A stretch of DNA of 64,000 nucleotides. Origin: a virus. Position 1 is the first letter of the stretch. Each line of letters begins with the position of its first letter. The DNA lies in the IMG/VR virus record IMGVR_UViG_3300027832_000016, positions 1 to 64,000 of that record; one strand, written 5' to 3'. The notes beneath the pieces are model-generated. The model made no database searches. It saw only the letters and a list, made by a program, of their open reading frames with translations, and was not told the DNA's origin. The position numbers and the translations under genes are program-made. This document shows positions 11,701-22,664 of the stretch, one piece after another.

Positions 11701-13266
11701 ATGGACTCCGAACTACTAGACGACGAACAAGAACTGCTTCCCGAAGAGTTTGGGGAAGAACTTGACGAGACTTCTGCGGAGTTTGTAGACCAGTTAGTCA
11801 CTAAACTAGTCCTGTTTACCGAGCAGTTCTGTAATGTAGAGTTTTTCCCCTACCAAGTACCTATTGCCTATCGAACCATTGAGTCAATAGTCCTAGGAGA
11901 CGGTGAAGAGATTACCTTGATTGCTACTCGTCAAAGTGGCAAATCCGAAGTTCTATCCAATGTGCTCGCGGCAATGATGGTTATCTTGCCAAAACTTGCG
12001 AAGGTTTACCCAACATGGTTAAGCAAGTTTGATAAGGGGTTTTGGTGTGGTGTATTTGCGCCAACTGAAGACCAAGCGGACACGGTGTTTAGCAGGATAG
12101 TAAATCGCCTTACAAGTGACCACGCTTTAGACTTCCTACTTGACCCTGAGATTGATGACAAGGCCATCTCTGGTGGTACTCGGGGTAAGGGAAAGATAAT
12201 CTCTCTTAAGAAGTCTGGGTCTCTCTGCCGTATGCAGACTTGTAACCCTAAGGCCAAAATTGAGTCTAAGACTTACCACTTCGTGCTGATTGACGAAGCA
12301 CAGGAGGCCGATGAGTTTGTCATTACTAAGTCTATTAAGCCCATGCTGGCGTTTAATAACGGAACCATCATGCTCACAGGAACTGCCAGTAGGTACAAAT
12401 CTTACTTCTATAAAATGATCCAGTACAACAAGAGGCGGATTAACCAGGGGCGTAGGAACATACGGGATTGCCATTTCGAGTATGACTACAAAGTTGCATC
12501 AAAGTACAATACTAACTATGGAAAATTCATCTCTAAAGAGAAACTCAGAATCGGAGAGGATTCAGACGAGTTTCAAATGTCCTATTGCAACCGATGGATG
12601 TTGGAAAAAGGAATGTTTGTTACCGAGGAACGCATGGAACGGATCTATGACTCCTCCATGCCTATCGTTAAGCAGTGGTGGAGAACACCTGTCGTTGTGG
12701 GAATTGACGTTGCGAGGTCCAACGACAGCACAGTTGTAACCGTTGTCTGGGTGGATTGGGATCATGCTGACCCCTTTGGGTTTTACGAGCACCGAATCCT
12801 TAACTGGTTGGAGATAAACAACGAGGAGTGGGAAAACCAATACTTTGAGATTATTGACTTTCTAAAGAACTATGACGTGTTTAGAATTGCCGTGGATGCT
12901 CAAGGCGTTGGTGGGGCTGTGGCGGAGCGCCTAAAGATATTGTTGCCAGACATCGAAGTGTTCCCAATGAACTCAGACTCAAAGAACCAAAACGAGCGCT
13001 GGGTGCACTTAACTGAGTTAATCCAAAGGGAGCAATTAGTGATCCCTGGGCATTCTAAGGCCCGCCGAACACGTAACTGGAAGCGGTTTAACCAGCAAAT
13101 GAACGACTTGGAGAAGGTGTATCGTGGCCCATACCTTCTGGCTGAGGCCCCAAATGAGAAGGGGGCATTTGATGACTACCCAGATTCCCTTGCCTTGGCA
13201 TGTGCCATGACAGTTCATGATACTATGCCTACGGTACAAGTTGGCGAGAACCCCTTCTTCAATTAG
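11701..13266 (+). CDS. terL: Terminase large subunit (packaging ATPase-nuclease)
   Basis: 521 residues, normal for a T4-type large terminase. Residues 75-82 ATRQSGKS are the Walker A motif, and 195-200 VLIDEA the Walker B with catalytic Glu199. TGTAS is the coupling motif. The C-terminal RNase H-like nuclease has acidic residues at Asp336 (GIDVARS), Asp399 (AVDAQG) and Asp491-495 (FDDYPDS). The protein pumps DNA into the prohead and cuts the concatemer. The first 30 residues are very acidic. No Shine-Dalgarno is obvious; the gene follows the 11438 gene by 20 bases. Confidence 0.95.
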   Translation: MDSELLDDEQELLPEEFGEELDETSAEFVDQLVTKLVLFTEQFCNVEFFPYQVPIAYRTIESIVLGDGEEITLIATRQSGKSEVLSNVLAAMMVILPKLAKVYPTWLSKFDKGFWCGVFAPTEDQADTVFSRIVNRLTSDHALDFLLDPEIDDKAISGGTRGKGKIISLKKSGSLCRMQTCNPKAKIESKTYHFVLIDEAQEADEFVITKSIKPMLAFNNGTIMLTGTASRYKSYFYKMIQYNKRRINQGRRNIRDCHFEYDYKVASKYNTNYGKFISKEKLRIGEDSDEFQMSYCNRWMLEKGMFVTEERMERIYDSSMPIVKQWWRTPVVVGIDVARSNDSTVVTVVWVDWDHADPFGFYEHRILNWLEINNEEWENQYFEIIDFLKNYDVFRIAVDAQGVGGAVAERLKILLPDIEVFPMNSDSKNQNERWVHLTELIQREQLVIPGHSKARRTRNWKRFNQQMNDLEKVYRGPYLLAEAPNEKGAFDDYPDSLALACAMTVHDTMPTVQVGENPFFN

Positions 13267-15617: not shown

Positions 15618-16220
15618 ATGCCAAAAGTTGTAGCCAAGAAACCAGTAGCCAAGAAACCAGTAGCCAAGAAACCAGTAGCCAGAAAAGTTGCTTGGGATTA
15701 CATAGTTCCTGTTAAACTGCCTGCTGACCTTAAAGGAGTTACCCCTGGAAAACTGCCCGAACACCTACTCGTCCCCGCTGTTGGTGGAGGAAAACTACAC
15801 CACATCGCCGCAATCGCATGGGCAGCAATGGTTGCCAAAGCCAAAACAGATGGAATCATACTCAAACCCACGTCATCTGGCGACTGCTATCGCAGTTACG
15901 CATCACAACTGGCGGGCTTCAAACAGCGCTACCAACTGGCACCGATTGCAGGCACAAGCACTAAATCGTTTGAAGGAAGCACCTGGTATCTAAAAAAAGG
16001 CATGGCAATGCTTGCCACACCAGGACGGAGTCAACATAACCTTGGTATTGCTGTTGATGTTCATTCCGCTTCGGAACCCAAGAGGCTTGCTTGGTTAGTT
16101 GCCAACGTTAAAACATTTGGCTTTTCATGGGAGGTTGTCCCTTCTGAGCCGTGGCATCTACGCTATGTTTGTGGGGACAGTCTGCCTCCAGCAGTTGCTG
16201 CGTTCAAAGGCCAAGGTTAG
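15618..16220 (+). CDS. Endolysin: M15 D,D-carboxypeptidase-type peptidase
   Basis: 200 residues. The M15 (VanY-like) zinc site is intact: His140 and Asp147 in SQHNLGIAVD, and His180 in EPWHLRY; SxxD-like sequence SSGDCYRSY precedes it. Such enzymes cleave peptide cross-links in peptidoglycan. The N-terminus carries a basic AKKPV repeat in place of a known wall-binding domain, and no signal peptide is visible. It therefore probably relies on a holin. A second M15 domain occurs in the tape measure protein. Confidence 0.85.
   Translation: MPKVVAKKPVAKKPVAKKPVARKVAWDYIVPVKLPADLKGVTPGKLPEHLLVPAVGGGKLHHIAAIAWAAMVAKAKTDGIILKPTSSGDCYRSYASQLAGFKQRYQLAPIAGTSTKSFEGSTWYLKKGMAMLATPGRSQHNLGIAVDVHSASEPKRLAWLVANVKTFGFSWEVVPSEPWHLRYVCGDSLPPAVAAFKGQG
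15631..15681 (+). repeat. 15-base tandem repeat encoding KKPVA
   Basis: Three exact copies of GTAGCCAAGAAACCA plus a partial fourth. They encode the basic N-terminal arm of the endolysin. Such exact repeats readily change copy number. Confidence 0.85.
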
Positions 16221-16293: not shown

Positions 16294-16437
16294 ATGAAGT
16301 CACATCAACTTGAACGTGTCATCTTCTTTTTGCGCAAGGTATACCCAGGGCAAATGGACATTGACGAGTTATTTGGTTTGATTGAAATTCTTACCCTTGA
16401 GATACAAAGGTTGGACAAAAAGAATGCCAAAAAGTAG
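16294..16437 (+). CDS. Tiny helical protein
   Basis: 47 residues, MKSHQLERVIFFLRKVYPGQ and a second helix rich in Leu/Ile ending KKNAKK. First gene behind the promoter at 16236, with AGGTGGTAGG upstream of the ATG. It overlaps the next gene by 14 bases. Function unknown. Confidence 0.5.
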   Translation: MKSHQLERVIFFLRKVYPGQMDIDELFGLIEILTLEIQRLDKKNAKK

Positions 16438-16708
16438 TTTCGTAGAAGACCTAAAGGTAGACCTTGCTCCCGCTAAACAGTGCGGTGTCGAGAGGGTTAG
16501 ATCTCAAATGGGTGCAGACGATAGAACTGCTCTTGATGCTGCTTTTGAAAAAATTAGGGACAAGAACTCATCATACAAATCGGTACAAACAACGGGTGGG
16601 TACACGTACAAATGGTTACATGACGTGCTAACCAAGCATGGGCATGTAGTCTCCATCAGATCAGTAACCAAACATAGTAGAAAGTTGTGTGCTTGCGATG
16701 TCAATTAA
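16424..16708 (+). CDS. Putative DNA-binding small protein
   Basis: 94 residues from MPKSSFVEDL. The C-terminal half (YTYKWLHDVLTKHGHVVSI, then SVTKHSRKLC) looks like a helix-turn-helix in which the second helix reads SIRSVTKHSR. This suits a small regulator or a small terminase-like protein. It precedes the metallophosphoesterase gene and overlaps it by 11 bases. Confidence 0.5.
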   Translation: MPKSSFVEDLKVDLAPAKQCGVERVRSQMGADDRTALDAAFEKIRDKNSSYKSVQTTGGYTYKWLHDVLTKHGHVVSIRSVTKHSRKLCACDVN

Positions 16709-17864
16709 ACAAGAACTACAAGTTGGACCACCACAAAGTGCAAAAGAAGTCCTTGGGAAACTTGCTGATTTATTGGCAAGACAGAACATTGACATTAATG
16801 AGATAGGAGATATAACACGAGTTTCGTTGTACCAAAGCATCACGAAGAATGAGGCGGGCGAAGCAGAGATCCACGACCTTGCTGGTATGCAATTTAAGTT
16901 TAGTCCTAAGTGGGAAACTGGCCCTGAGTGGCAAGTGGTTCAGCAGGGTCCTGCAATAAAACTCCCACCGATTTCGGCCAAGACTAAGAAGGCATCTACC
17001 TTTAAGACTTGTGTTGTAGTACCTGATATTCAGATCGGGTATTACAGGGGGCGTGATGGGGAACTAGAACCAACACATGATGAGGATGCTATTCAGATTT
17101 GCCTAAAGATGATCGATGACATCAAGCCAGAAGTTATTGTTTGTGTGGGGGACAATCTAGACCTTCCTGAAATGGGGAAGTACCTTATTTACCCAGCGTT
17201 TGCTCAAACAACGCAGGCTTCCATTAACAGGGCCACATTGTTCTGTGCGGAAATGAGAGCAGCAGCACCTAACGCAACCATAGTTTGGCTTGCTGGGAAC
17301 CACGAAGAAAGAATGCCAAAGTACCTGTTGGTAAATGCGGGAGCCGCTTATGGGTTGCGCAAAGGTAACACCCCAGACTCTTGGCCAGTTCTTAGTGTTC
17401 CATATCTTTGCAGGATGGAAGAGTTTGGTGTGGAATACCGCCCAGGATATCCTGCTGCTGATTATTGGATTAATGAGAAACTTAGAATCATTCACGGTGA
17501 TCGAGTTAAGTCATCTGGTTCTACCGCCCACATTTATCTCAACCAAGAAAAGACATCGGTTATCTATGGACATATCCATAGGATTGAGACAGCCTTTAAG
17601 ACACGTGAGGACTTTGATGGCCCTCGCACAATCATGGCAGCGTCCCCAGGGTGCCTTGCTAGGATTGATGGCGCTATTCCCTCAACACGAGGGGGTGTTG
17701 ACTTAGACGGAAGACCTTTGACTCGTTATGAGAACTGGCAACAGGGAGTTGGTGTGGTCACCTACGAAGATACAGATGCTCATAGATTTAGTTATGACGT
17801 GACACCAATCTACAATGGCTGGGCCATGTACAACGGCAAAGAGTACCAAGCAAAACAGTCATGA
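16698..17864 (+). CDS. Calcineurin-like metallophosphoesterase
   Basis: 388 residues. Metal-binding motifs appear in the standard order: PDIQIGYY (D), GDNLDLPE (GDxxD), GNHEERMP (GNHE), then IIHGDRV and GHIHRIE. This is the dinuclear phosphoesterase fold, acting on phosphodiesters or phosphoproteins. The N-terminal 100 residues are extra and helical. The ATG at 16698 is preferred over a GTG nine bases upstream. Phage members of this family lie in late operons like this one; the substrate is unknown, with nucleotide or DNA ends the likeliest. Confidence 0.8.
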   Translation: MSIKQELQVGPPQSAKEVLGKLADLLARQNIDINEIGDITRVSLYQSITKNEAGEAEIHDLAGMQFKFSPKWETGPEWQVVQQGPAIKLPPISAKTKKASTFKTCVVVPDIQIGYYRGRDGELEPTHDEDAIQICLKMIDDIKPEVIVCVGDNLDLPEMGKYLIYPAFAQTTQASINRATLFCAEMRAAAPNATIVWLAGNHEERMPKYLLVNAGAAYGLRKGNTPDSWPVLSVPYLCRMEEFGVEYRPGYPAADYWINEKLRIIHGDRVKSSGSTAHIYLNQEKTSVIYGHIHRIETAFKTREDFDGPRTIMAASPGCLARIDGAIPSTRGGVDLDGRPLTRYENWQQGVGVVTYEDTDAHRFSYDVTPIYNGWAMYNGKEYQAKQS

Positions 17865-17986
17865 TGCCACAGGTGCTGTATGCAGCAAGGTTGCTGGCGT
17901 TTATCTGTTGGCGTGACAATCAGACAGAGAACAACTGGCGCATCTATATGGAAGCCCGCGATGCCCTAAGACTACTTGATCTATGA
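17861..17986 (+). CDS. Tiny protein between phosphoesterase and Ntn-hydrolase
   Basis: 41 residues, MMPQVLYAARLLAFICWRDN then an amphipathic helix ending LRLLDL. It overlaps both neighbours by four bases, which argues that it is translated. Function unknown. Confidence 0.5.
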   Translation: MMPQVLYAARLLAFICWRDNQTENNWRIYMEARDALRLLDL

Positions 17987-18618
17987 CAACAATTATAGCC
18001 GTTCAAGGAGATGGTTTCGCTGTTATAAGTGTGGACTCTAGGATTTCACGTAGTTACTTTGGGGGAGCATCCATACAGACAGCCACCCTAAAAGATGGTT
18101 CAAGCAAGGTGGCCCCTAACGGAAAATATCTACTTGGTGCTGCTGGCGATGTGCGGGCGATTAACATCATTCAGCATGTATTCCAACCACCGACACCCCC
18201 ACCAAACCTCAAGGGTAAAAAACTTGACCAGTTCTTTACGGCCAAATTTATACCAGCACTTAGAGAGTGTTTTGACGCACAAGGATATTCTGTTCCTGAT
18301 ATTGAAGATAAGGAACATATCGCTGAGCAGGGTTCCGCAATCCTCGTAGTAATAAATGGGACCATTTATATTGTGGACAGTGATTACTCGTGGTCATCTG
18401 ATTCCTATGGACTTTATTCGGTAGGTTCTGGGTCTGACTATGCTTTGGGGGCCATGCAGATATTGACACATAACAAAAAACAGACTATCCAGCAGGCGAA
18501 AACGAACGCTATAAAAGCCCTTATTGTGACTGCTAGGTATGACCCCTATACGGGACCTCCCTTTCACACCTTTGTCCAAGAGCAGGATGGAAACAGGAAA
18601 ACTGCAAAACCTGTATAA
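17983..18618 (+). CDS. HslV/proteasome-like Ntn-hydrolase
   Basis: 211 residues beginning MTTIIAVQGDGFAVISVDSR. After removal of Met the new N-terminus is Thr-Thr, as in HslV, and Asp lands exactly at position 17 (VDSR). A Lys-Val (SKVAPNGKYLLGAAGD) stands where the catalytic lysine strand is expected, eight residues later than in HslV. Further strands (SAILVVINGTIYIVDSD, then YSVGSGSDYALGA) match the proteasome beta fold. The reaction would be threonine peptidase cleavage. It sits two genes before the portal, where many phages keep the prohead protease. A capsid-maturation role is my inference. Confidence 0.65.
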   Translation: MTTIIAVQGDGFAVISVDSRISRSYFGGASIQTATLKDGSSKVAPNGKYLLGAAGDVRAINIIQHVFQPPTPPPNLKGKKLDQFFTAKFIPALRECFDAQGYSVPDIEDKEHIAEQGSAILVVINGTIYIVDSDYSWSSDSYGLYSVGSGSDYALGAMQILTHNKKQTIQQAKTNAIKALIVTARYDPYTGPPFHTFVQEQDGNRKTAKPV

Positions 18619-18648: not shown

Positions 18649-18924
18649 ATGGCTACAGCAAACCAGACAACAGACCAGGCAACAAAGGGCGGTGTTTTAG
18701 GCATTGTCACATATCTAGGCATCAAGTACAGCGTTGACCCAGCACTTCTCGCCATGTCTTTGCCCCTCATTGCCGCAGGCCTTGCGTGGGTTTCAACCAG
18801 AATTGGTGACCCAACTGTTGCCGCATTCTTTGGGGATAAGGGCTGTAAACCAGTCAGCATTAGCATCACCAAGGCACCTGCAAAAAAGGCACCTGCAAAA
18901 AAGGCACCTGCAAAAAAGAAGTAG
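18649..18924 (+). CDS. Holin-like membrane protein with Lys-rich tail
   Basis: 91 residues. Two hydrophobic segments (GGVLGIVTYLGIKYS and LLAMSLPLIAAGLAWV) could span the membrane. The C-terminus has three KKAPA-type repeats and ends KKK. Small size, two segments and a basic tail fit many holins, but the endolysin is 2.4 kb upstream. It could equally be a virion or scaffold-linked membrane protein. Shine-Dalgarno is weak. Confidence 0.5.
   Translation: MATANQTTDQATKGGVLGIVTYLGIKYSVDPALLAMSLPLIAAGLAWVSTRIGDPTVAAFFGDKGCKPVSISITKAPAKKAPAKKAPAKKK
18871..18915 (+). repeat. 15-base tandem repeat encoding KAPAK
   Basis: Three exact copies of AAGGCACCTGCAAAA, giving the Lys/Ala/Pro tail of the preceding gene. 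It resembles in style, but not in sequence, the KKPVA repeat of the endolysin. Confidence 0.85.
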
Positions 18925-18963: not shown

Positions 18964-20652
18964 ATGCCTGTTGACTTCTGGTCTCCCTCCTACAGAGCCG
19001 CTTCCAGCGACTTAACTGTTGCGATCTCCCCGTTAGGTCTAGTTGAACTGGCTGACGAGGAATTTGAGGTTCACGGCCCACGTCTAAACAGGTACTCTGC
19101 TGCGTGGGCTTGGTACTTGGGGCATCACTGGAGCCATCGTAGGGAAATGGGTGATAACAACATCACCCTTAACTACGTTAGGACAATGGCCGATTTCATT
19201 ACCAACTTCTGCTTTGGTAAGGGGATTCAGTTCAAGGTCCCTGAGGCAAACCAAGCAATTATCCCGCACCTACTCCATGAGGTCTGGGATAACCACAACA
19301 ACAAGCATTACCTGTTGTGGCAAATTGGACAACTTGCCGGTGTTTGTGGTGACGCTTTTGTGAAGATTGCGTTTGATGAACCTTACGCAGATCCAACAGG
19401 GATGGTGCACCCAGGACGAATTAGAATCCTTCCGTTAAACCCAGCCCACTGCTTCCCCGAGTATCACCCCCATGACAGGGAGAGGTTGCTTAGATTTAAA
19501 CTGAAGTACAGGTTCTGGGGCACATCACCAGAAGGAACTCGTCAGGTCTACACCTTTACGGAAATCCTTACGGACGATAATGTACAGCAGTTCATCAACG
19601 ATGAACTAATCGACCAGTATGAGAACCCATTGGGCATGGTTCCTATTGTCCACATCCCCAATGTCACCATCACATCATCCCCTTGGGGTCAGTCCGACAT
19701 CTGGGACATTATTCAACTGAACCGTGAACTGAACGAAAAGATGACTGAGATTTCGGACATCATTAACTATCACGCCGCCCCAGTAACAATCATCACGGGC
19801 GCTAAAGCAAGTCAGTTGGAGCGTGGTCCTAAGAAGGTTTGGGCTGGGCTTCCTAAAGATGCGCAGGTGTTTAACCTAGAGTCCAAGGGGGAAATGGCTG
19901 GTGCTCTAGAATATGTGCAACTTATTAAGAGAGCGATGCATGAGATTACTGGTGTCCCTGAAACAGCCCTTGGGCAATTCCAGCCAGTGTCTAACACCAG
20001 CGGTGTTGCTCTAGCAATTCAATACCAGCCTTTGATGAACCGTTACCAGATGAAGAAGATTCACTTTACAAATGGGTTGGAGAAATTAAATGAGATTATT
20101 ATCCGCACTGCGTCGGTTTTCCTTCCAGAACTTCTCATTTACAACCCATCAGAGTCTGCCGCCCCAGAGGCTTCAATGCTCACACAGTTGGATCCTAGAG
20201 ACCCAAACACGTATAAAACAACAATCCATTGGCCTCAACCGCTGCCAGTTGACGAACTCATCAAACTTAATGAGGTGCAGTCAAAGATGGCCCTTGGGCT
20301 AGAGTCCAAGCGTGGGGCGCTACAACTACTTGGCGAAGAATTCCCCAATGAGAAGATGCTTGAGATCTTTGAGGAACTCCGTGATGATGCTATAGACCAG
20401 GGTGCACTAGACATGATTAGGGCTCAAATAGGCCAGGCGGTCATGATGGCGACTGGTTTACTCCCCTCAACAGGCGGTCTCGAAAACGTCTCCGCTGGAG
20501 GTGATAGTGTTAGTACAGCAGGCAGTCCTCAAGGGGGCGGTGTGCTTCCAGGAACTAGTGTTAATCCAGTTGAAATGGATTTAATAAACCAAATAACAAG
20601 CAAGGCATACGGAGCCAGGTTCGCCCAGCGCCGTATACCTGACGAAAATTAA
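18964..20652 (+). CDS. Portal protein
   Basis: 562 residues, typical length. Features of phage portals: an N-terminal clip/wing region with LNYVRTMADFITNFCFGKGI, and IGQLAGVCGDAFVKIAFDEP. The central stem segment has PWGQSDIWDIIQLNRELNEK and ITGVPETALGQF, followed by a long helix. The C-terminal 60 residues are Gly/Ser-rich. The dodecameric portal forms the DNA entry pore and docks terminase and connector. It precedes scaffold and capsid genes in the classic order. Confidence 0.9.
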   Translation: MPVDFWSPSYRAASSDLTVAISPLGLVELADEEFEVHGPRLNRYSAAWAWYLGHHWSHRREMGDNNITLNYVRTMADFITNFCFGKGIQFKVPEANQAIIPHLLHEVWDNHNNKHYLLWQIGQLAGVCGDAFVKIAFDEPYADPTGMVHPGRIRILPLNPAHCFPEYHPHDRERLLRFKLKYRFWGTSPEGTRQVYTFTEILTDDNVQQFINDELIDQYENPLGMVPIVHIPNVTITSSPWGQSDIWDIIQLNRELNEKMTEISDIINYHAAPVTIITGAKASQLERGPKKVWAGLPKDAQVFNLESKGEMAGALEYVQLIKRAMHEITGVPETALGQFQPVSNTSGVALAIQYQPLMNRYQMKKIHFTNGLEKLNEIIIRTASVFLPELLIYNPSESAAPEASMLTQLDPRDPNTYKTTIHWPQPLPVDELIKLNEVQSKMALGLESKRGALQLLGEEFPNEKMLEIFEELRDDAIDQGALDMIRAQIGQAVMMATGLLPSTGGLENVSAGGDSVSTAGSPQGGGVLPGTSVNPVEMDLINQITSKAYGARFAQRRIPDEN

Positions 20653-20713: not shown

Positions 20714-21508
20714 ATGCCAAAGACAGTGGAAGATACCGTAACCATCCCCGCAATTGCGCTTGATGCGTTTAACGCAGAAGCGAACCAAACCCAGCAGAGC
20801 CCCCCACCAAAAGGTCGGGTCTTCTCCGAGGACGAGGTCGAGGCAATTCGCAAGCAGGAAAAGGACAAACTCTACAAGCGTATTGAAGAGTCCGACATCC
20901 GCACAAAGACATTGGAAGATCAGATTTCAGTCATTGCAAAAGAGCGGGAAGCGTCTATTAACGCCGCTAAAGACCTCGTGCGCAAGGAAGAGGAAGTCCG
21001 TCATCAGCGTGAGTTTGATGAGTTAAGTTCCAAGGAACTGCTAAAGCGCACAGAAGATGACTTCAACACCAAGATCAAGGACATTGACAAGGTGTGGCAG
21101 GAGCGCTTTGCTGGCATTGAGCAGGAGCGCCAAGCATCCCAAGCCCTCCTTGAAAAGGAGCAGCAACTACGGGCGGTTGAGGTTTACCGTCAGCGCCGCT
21201 TGACGGAGGCCCAAGAGAACATCATCCCAGAACTGCTTGATTTGGTCTCTGGTAACACCCCTGAGGAGATTGACGCCTCTGTGGAAATCCTTAGCCAGCG
21301 CAGTGCTGCTATAATCGAAAGTATCCAGCAAACGACTCAACCGAGTCGTGTTAGAGGAACGGTTGTTTCGCAGCCACCTGTTGGACCAATGGAGACCCAA
21401 ACGGAATACCAAACGTTGAATGCGGATGACATCCGAAACATGACCATGGACCAGTATGTTAAAATGCGTGACAGGCTTTTGAGTTCACGACCCAAGGGTC
21501 GTTTTTAG
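20714..21508 (+). CDS. Capsid scaffolding protein
   Basis: 264 residues, very rich in Lys, Glu, Arg and Gln, with a long coiled coil between residues 40 and 165 (EAIRKQEKDKLYKRIEESD and similar). The C-terminus (MTMDQYVKMRDRLLSSRPKG) is a short basic helix, as in scaffolds that bind the capsid protein. Position between portal and capsid genes fixes the role. No protease domain is fused to it. Preceded by AGGAG. Confidence 0.8.
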   Translation: MPKTVEDTVTIPAIALDAFNAEANQTQQSPPPKGRVFSEDEVEAIRKQEKDKLYKRIEESDIRTKTLEDQISVIAKEREASINAAKDLVRKEEEVRHQREFDELSSKELLKRTEDDFNTKIKDIDKVWQERFAGIEQERQASQALLEKEQQLRAVEVYRQRRLTEAQENIIPELLDLVSGNTPEEIDASVEILSQRSAAIIESIQQTTQPSRVRGTVVSQPPVGPMETQTEYQTLNADDIRNMTMDQYVKMRDRLLSSRPKGRF

Positions 21509-21551: not shown

Positions 21552-22664
21552 ATGGCACTACCAGCACCAGTAGGTGGAGCAATCACAGGAGCAGGACTTG
21601 GTTCAATCACAACCACGGGCTACTCAAGCGATGCAACCCTTTCCCCAGCAATTCAACAGATTTGGTCAAAAGAGATTTTGTTTCAGGCAATGCCTGTTCT
21701 CCGCTTTGAGCAATTCGCCGTCAAGAAAACAGAACTCGGCGTACAGCCTGGTTTGACAATCAACTTCATGCGTTACAGCAACCTCGCAACGGATGAGGAC
21801 ACAGGTGCAACCTTGACTGAAGGTGTGCGTATGGAGCCAGTCGCTCTGTCTGCATCACAGATTCAGATCACAGTTGGCGAACAAGGCCAGGCCCTTGCCG
21901 TAACCGAACTGTTGCTCAACGCTTCGTTCGATGACGTGATGGCTTCGTCCAGTCGTTTGCTCGGTCGTCACATGGCACAGTCCATGGACATCCAAGCGCG
22001 TAACACGCTGTACAAGACAGCCATTCCATTCGGTGGTGGTTCTGCTGTAGCAGCGAACCTCGTCTACGGTCGCAACGTCGCATCTGGTGCTCGTACAACG
22101 ATCTCGCCATACGACGCTGGTACTGTTGGTACTGCCGCCGCCCCTGGCTATCTGTCCCCAGCAGCCATCAAAGATGCCGTTACGGTTCTTTCTGGCCAAA
22201 ACATCCCACGCCTTGGTGATACCTACGTTTGCTTCGTTCACCCAGCACAGAGCCGCTCGCTCCGTGACTGGCCTGAATTCATTGAAGTAACCAAGTACGC
22301 TGCCCCAGGCAACTTCATGCTCGGTGAAATCGGTCGTATCTACGACGTAGTGTTCATTGAGACCACACAGGTTAAGAAGGGCCTTGACGCAACAGCGTCA
22401 ACTGGCGCTATCTACGGCCTTTCAGGTGTTGATGCTGACTCAGGCACCGAAGGTGTTCAAGAGAACGCCAATGCGTACAACGCCATCATGATTGGTGACA
22501 ACGCCTTTGGTCACGCCATTGCTTTGCCAGTGGAACTCCGTGATGGTGGTGTCATTGACTTCGGTCGTGAGCATGGTCTTGCTTGGTACTCCATTTGGGG
22601 TTTCGGCATGATTACCCACGAATCGCGTGTCATTCTAAACACACTCGGTGGTGCAATCGCCTGA
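21552..22664 (+). CDS. Major capsid protein (HK97 fold, N4 gp56-like)
   Basis: 370 residues. The N-terminus is Gly/Ala-rich; EILFQAMPVLRFEQFA marks the start of the long N-arm helix. The motif GLTINFMRYSNL, the ALTEGV-type loop (GATLTEGVRMEPVALSASQI) and LGRHMAQSMDIQARNTLY match the N4-gp56 type of HK97-fold capsid proteins. A long A-domain strand (YVCFVHPAQSRSLRD) and RDGGVIDFGREHGLAWYSIW follow. It is the abundant shell protein. GGAGG precedes the ATG and codon choice is unusually even, as expected for high expression. Confidence 0.9.
   Translation: MALPAPVGGAITGAGLGSITTTGYSSDATLSPAIQQIWSKEILFQAMPVLRFEQFAVKKTELGVQPGLTINFMRYSNLATDEDTGATLTEGVRMEPVALSASQIQITVGEQGQALAVTELLLNASFDDVMASSSRLLGRHMAQSMDIQARNTLYKTAIPFGGGSAVAANLVYGRNVASGARTTISPYDAGTVGTAAAPGYLSPAAIKDAVTVLSGQNIPRLGDTYVCFVHPAQSRSLRDWPEFIEVTKYAAPGNFMLGEIGRIYDVVFIETTQVKKGLDATASTGAIYGLSGVDADSGTEGVQENANAYNAIMIGDNAFGHAIALPVELRDGGVIDFGREHGLAWYSIWGFGMITHESRVILNTLGGAIA

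Follow-up and report, generated by a model that had tools for sequence, protein, structure and literature searches.

The gene at positions 17983-18618 (plus strand) of the window, that is, the whole 64,000-nucleotide stretch of the virus record IMGVR_UViG_3300027832_000016 analysed here, encodes a proteasome-like Ntn-hydrolase of 211 amino acids. It is best read as a phage-encoded group-I proteasome homologue, similar to BPH and AAH, and not as HslV proper. In our opinion, this peptidase is probably an accessory enzyme, which mostly occupies second place in a metallophosphoesterase-peptidase cassette, and would be directed at host or phage proteins or peptides, not at the capsid.

The only Pfam family matched by the product was Proteasome (PF00227; E 3.1e-6, 27.4 bits against a gathering score of 22.4). 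The same family was matched, with E up to 0.001, by 35 of 35 non-redundant relatives, the alignment of which was the basis of the AlphaFold model and of the search profile. A match was also obtained to phrog_1040, named 'peptidase HslV family' (E 7.1e-25). The equivalog cut-offs for HslV in NCBIfam were not reached (22.8 against 137 and 22.1 against 157.75 bits), and with scores so far under them 'HslV-like' is a correct term for the peptidase and 'HslV' is not. As for the known prohead protease families S78, S14 and S49, the product matches none of them in Pfam.

The translation of the reading frame begins M-T-T-I-I-A-V-Q. Three features that had been pointed out from the letters alone, namely Thr-Thr at the N-terminus after Met removal, an Asp at position 17 and a Lys-Val strand, are borne out: the frame reads M-T-T, D18 is residue 17 when counted from Thr1, and 'SSKVAP' is found at residues 40-45. 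T2, D18, R20, K42, D187, T190 and G191 are invariant in the alignment of 35 relatives, including the Thr-Gly after D187 (T190-G191), and G52, in the Gly47 region, is present in 33 of the 35. The codons of the putative active site, all on the plus strand, are located at 17986-17988 (T2, the nucleophile Thr1, which Met removal would expose), 18034-18036 (D18, Asp17), 18106-18108 (K42, the Lys33-equivalent) and 18541-18552 (D187 and T190, equivalent to Asp166 and Ser169), the equivalences of K42, D187 and T190 being drawn from sequence. The AlphaFold model has a mean pLDDT of 77 and a pTM of 0.77, with low confidence around the Lys33-equivalent. It shows the predicted Ntn sandwich fold, and Foldseek related it to BPH, HslV and proteasome beta subunits with a probability of 1.00. 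The best PDB match was BPH (5ovs; E 8.5e-10, TM 0.71 by target), followed by HslV and proteasome beta, and the best viral structure matches included a phage protein annotated as HslV. Pfam, PHROG, the predicted fold and the invariant active site agree on the class of Thr-nucleophile Ntn-hydrolases, to which the sequence-only reading had assigned the product. Helix H2 (residues 78-99) is present in the model, and the loop after it (residues 99-118; 18277-18336, plus strand), which corresponds by model and alignment to the pore loop of BPH, is net acidic in all 35 relatives.

A use of the Ntn fold for non-proteolytic chemistry, either ligation or hydrolysis of small-molecule amides, seems quite improbable. 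Connectase is a member of the family that acts as a ligase (PMC8665760), and a conserved non-canonical stretch, FQPP...LDQF...KFIPALRECF, was found in the alignment of the peptidase, but the predicted structure contains the helices H1 and H2, which are missing in connectase, and the full set of proteasome-type residues is present. The action of the enzyme as a peptidase may be presented as follows. The host methionine aminopeptidase would expose Thr1, which together with Asp17 and the Lys33-equivalent would form the standard threonine-peptidase site. Judging from the family, the subunits probably assemble as a self-compartmentalising ring with the acidic loop lining its pore; such a pore may draw in short, basic or unstructured polypeptides, for which a dedicated unfoldase would be unneeded. 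Most likely, the peptidase would act during infection, in host takeover, proteostasis or counter-defence. We know of no substrate of BPH.

The gene found most regularly beside the peptidase is that of a calcineurin-like metallophosphoesterase (16689-17864, plus strand; PF00149, phrog_20266), which adjoins it in two phage lineages; in this window, unlike in most relatives, the two genes are separated by a gap of 118 bp. In the phosphoesterase, D-I-Q replaces the usual first motif D-x-H, and GDNLD, GNHE and GHIH are intact. Further upstream, on the same strand, are the genes of a small protein of unknown fold (16382-16708), of a probable peptidoglycan endopeptidase with a lysin domain (15618-16220; phrog_16823, weak phrog_2649) and of the terminase large subunit (11701-13266; phrog_2, 6e-28). 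Downstream, also on the plus strand, a protein of 91 amino acids with a hydrophobic segment and a Lys/Ala-rich tail, as read from its sequence, is encoded between the peptidase and the portal (18649-18924), and no confident family was found for it. It is followed by the portal protein (18964-20652; phrog_64, 5e-48), the scaffolding protein (20714-21508; about 30% identical to the annotated scaffolds of LuckySocke and GiJojo) and the major capsid protein (MCP; 21552-22664; phrog_1357, 1.5e-62). The lysin-like protein opens with (15618-15690), and the 91-residue protein ends in (18880-18924), Lys/Pro/Ala repeats (KKPVAKKPVA; AKKAPAKKAPAKK). A promoter and terminator scan near the peptidase gene gave nothing above chance.

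The order phosphoesterase, peptidase, 91-residue protein, portal, scaffold and capsid is kept across one phage family (lineage A), some members of which have additional genes ahead of the portal. No cultured phage with the peptidase gene beside its portal was seen in the collections. Peptidases with 58-72% identity are found in other settings in lineages B (L076/L110, L077, L128, L136, L147 and L148; contigs up to 216 kb) and C (L129, L137, L145 and L153). The peptidase of lineage B adjoins KTSC, uracil-DNA-glycosylase-like (UDG) and SSB genes. In lineage C, a weak homologue of the small protein of unknown fold (profile matches with E 1e-4 to 1e-6) precedes the phosphoesterase, and the phosphoesterase-peptidase pair is followed by a WhiB gene where this was tested; a 54-kb contig of this lineage (G015) carries a tail-sheath-like gene, assigned from sequence, at about 1 kb and the peptidase at about 52 kb. 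Unrelated large actinophages carry the peptidase without the capsid genes of this phage nearby, and other settings include WhiB, KTSC, Hsp20, a tRNA/MazG/ThyX block and an early block. Both flanks were available for 66 distinct loci: portal and phosphoesterase accompany the peptidase in 51 of them, the phosphoesterase alone in 4 and neither gene in 11, and in no case was the portal present without the phosphoesterase. WhiB is encoded in all 15 peptidase-carrying records tested, which indicates actinobacterial hosts; the virus of this window would be one of freshwater actinobacteria. A scan of genome contigs for the peptidase gave one MAG contig only.

Several side observations concern these loci. 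A KTSC-domain gene lies directly upstream of the peptidase or a few genes off in two unrelated phage groups (L110 7596-7886, L128, L136, L257 and L258, the matches in L257 and L258 being weak), and a divergent proteasome-like gene of a sister phage has an Hsp20 small heat-shock gene (L259 2507-2986) at a distance of about 0.4 kb. A short basic C-terminal tail of the peptidase, mostly ending RK(P/T)V (18592-18615 of the window), is kept in the main clade of lineage A; tails of this type are absent from lineages B and C, and the peptidase of Actinomycetia phage DSL-LC01 has a longer Lys/Arg tail.

The gene context also bears on the idea that the peptidase is a late accessory of the lysis module. 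In this window it has the lysin gene on one side and the gene of a membrane protein on the other, and lysin-like genes occur upstream in lineage C too, but no annotated lysis gene is close to the peptidase in D'Alembert, Microbacterium phage Pumpernickel (homologue gp135), pT24 and lineage B, and such a role is the least probable of those considered here.

Among known systems, the group-I proteasome homologues BPH, AAH and PPH stand nearest to the peptidase. BPH is a ring without an unfoldase and has a long acidic pore loop (PMC5777263). The peptidase resembles BPH (5ovs/5ovt), its best PDB match, in having Thr1 without a propeptide and an acidic loop after H2, and no unfoldase was found in the eight records of the lineage-A phage family searched; it differs in the identity of only about 21%, in being a phage gene, in an insertion before the Lys33-equivalent and in a gene neighbourhood that bears no relation to BPH operons. 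AAH and PPH group-I homologues were reported in phages, and no actinophage with AAH was found (Fuchs, Alva and Lupas 2021, PMC8665760). The nearest plasmid matches of the peptidase belong to Rhizobium/Sinorhizobium/Mesorhizobium and Streptomyces; this taxonomy (Rhizobium group and Streptomyces) is the signature of AAH, to which the peptidase may belong. In contrast to that survey, in which AAH was seen in no actinophage, all the peptidase carriers tested here encode WhiB. PPH is about 140 amino acids long and without H2, and the size of 211 amino acids and the helix at 78-99 rule against this identity. The fold, the Thr1 active site and the PHROG name are shared with HslV, from which the peptidase is distinguished by scores far under the equivalog cut-offs and by the fact that no HslU-type AAA_2 was found in the eight lineage-A records searched. 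The 'ATP-dependent protease subunit' of the lake actinophage DSL-LC01 (OQ999401) is a 51% identical orthologue; unlike in this phage, its gene adjoins WhiB and precedes the terminase by about 6 kb and the portal by about 10 kb.

The work of the peptidase with an ATP-dependent unfoldase as a phage-controlled unfoldase-protease, the partner being host ARC/Mpa, ClpX or ClpC or the lineage-B phage's own AAA+ protein, is unlikely, although less so than a non-proteolytic function. The fold resembles that of HslV, and all four large lineage-B records searched contain an AAA_2 unfoldase and no ClpP, so that an unfoldase-assisted mode is possible in that lineage. On the other hand, HslU-type AAA_2 (PF07724) was unmatched in eight lineage-A records (the incomplete record G000 and seven lineage-A relatives), DSL-LC01 and D'Alembert, the unfoldase gene is not adjacent to the peptidase, and the acidic loop resembles that of BPH, which is free of an unfoldase. 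The AAA_2 proteins have 475-503 amino acids (L263 871-2382 and L264 1171-2598, from G013 and G009; also in G010 and G012), and their sequence is like that of a Clp D2 module ('GSPPGYVGHDEGGQL'), preceded by an N-terminus specific to the phages.

The history of the peptidase gene was followed in a maximum-likelihood tree, in which the three phage groups interleave and group A must have changed at least 3 times, given the branches with strong support. Within this group, peptidase distances correlated with those of the phosphoesterase at r = 0.81, of the portal at 0.58 and of the MCP at 0.50, and the partial correlations were 0.74, 0.36 and 0.29, respectively; some correlation is expected from physical linkage alone, but the portal is almost as near as the phosphoesterase. 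The gene history tracks the phosphoesterase better than the portal or capsid.

The sequence-only reading had proposed that the Ntn-hydrolase may serve as the capsid maturation protease; the enzyme class stands, and this role is contradicted by the comparative evidence. Its observations on the locus were accurate: the portal starts at 18964, two genes downstream of the peptidase, and no ClpP-like or U35-like protease was seen nearby, searches of this record for S78, ClpP and S49 proteases being empty. A search for S77 gave no match either, but it had no working control. As a prohead protease of this phage family, the enzyme would enter the prohead and cleave the scaffold and/or the capsid N-termini. 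In all relatives with this portal type the peptidase is located within about 1-1.8 kb ahead of the portal, and S78, ClpP and S49 proteases were not found in the lineage-A records searched. A comparison with other phages showed that the position before the portal is kept in lineage A, but in other lineages the gene is away from capsid modules. Moreover, this portal (52% identical), scaffold (about 30%) and MCP (about 58%) recur, in unchanged order, in the Streptomyces phages GiJojo, BRock, pSt2308 and LuckySocke, and the 35-sequence peptidase profile, which does detect the DSL-LC01 and D'Alembert homologues, had no match in these four complete genomes even at E 10; S78 is absent from all four and S49 from the three that were searched for it. 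Further contigs of the sister group, BRock itself among them, have portal, scaffold and MCP without the peptidase in the flanks covered (33 of 33), and the terminase is present in all but one. A search of whole sister records found divergent homologues (31-41% identical) in 4 of 10. In G021 and G022 the distance to the portal is about 9 kb, the remaining two have the homologue elsewhere, and three of these four copies are accompanied by KTSC-like or Hsp20 genes; distant homologues in these four records, which have the same capsid module, mean a looser tie to the phage group. Psychrobacter phage D'Alembert has a homologue outside the structural block and, in addition, a head-maturation protease of family S49 (phrog_53, 6.8e-68), encoded between its portal and capsid genes. 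By alignment, the MCP has about 24 residues ahead of the conserved N-arm and lacks a delta domain, and scaffold sizes are similar whether or not the phage carries the peptidase. The discordance of the peptidase tree with the phage groups and the poorer fit of its distances to the portal and MCP also speak against a prohead protease, which we regard as very improbable. From the module without peptidase, the coexistence in D'Alembert, the MCP without a delta domain and the scaffold sizes, it may be concluded that a capsid maturation role is unlikely. The peptidase is missing from complete genomes that have the same module and present in phages without homologous capsid genes beside it, which is not what a prohead protease would show. 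No paper was found in which a prohead protease and a scaffold are linked with an Ntn hydrolase.

Because related viruses have the peptidase far from capsid genes, or the same capsid without the peptidase, it is most likely a mobile accessory gene passing between actinophages. The phosphoesterase, as its regular neighbour, may share an accessory task with it in infection and is a testable functional lead. A more specific proposal, tentative at present, is that the phosphoesterase and the unfoldase-free peptidase form a dedicated two-gene actinophage module that removes specific host proteins, possibly those of defence or stress. The tempting but very probably wrong assignment of a proteasome-fold capsid protease is removed by these data. 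Proteasome-like peptidases are widespread in freshwater actinophages, which goes against the 2021 statement on the lack of AAH in actinophages, if the peptidase is an AAH. If the proposal of a two-gene module is true, these phages would run a mini-proteasome of their own inside hosts, some of which possess proteasomes themselves.
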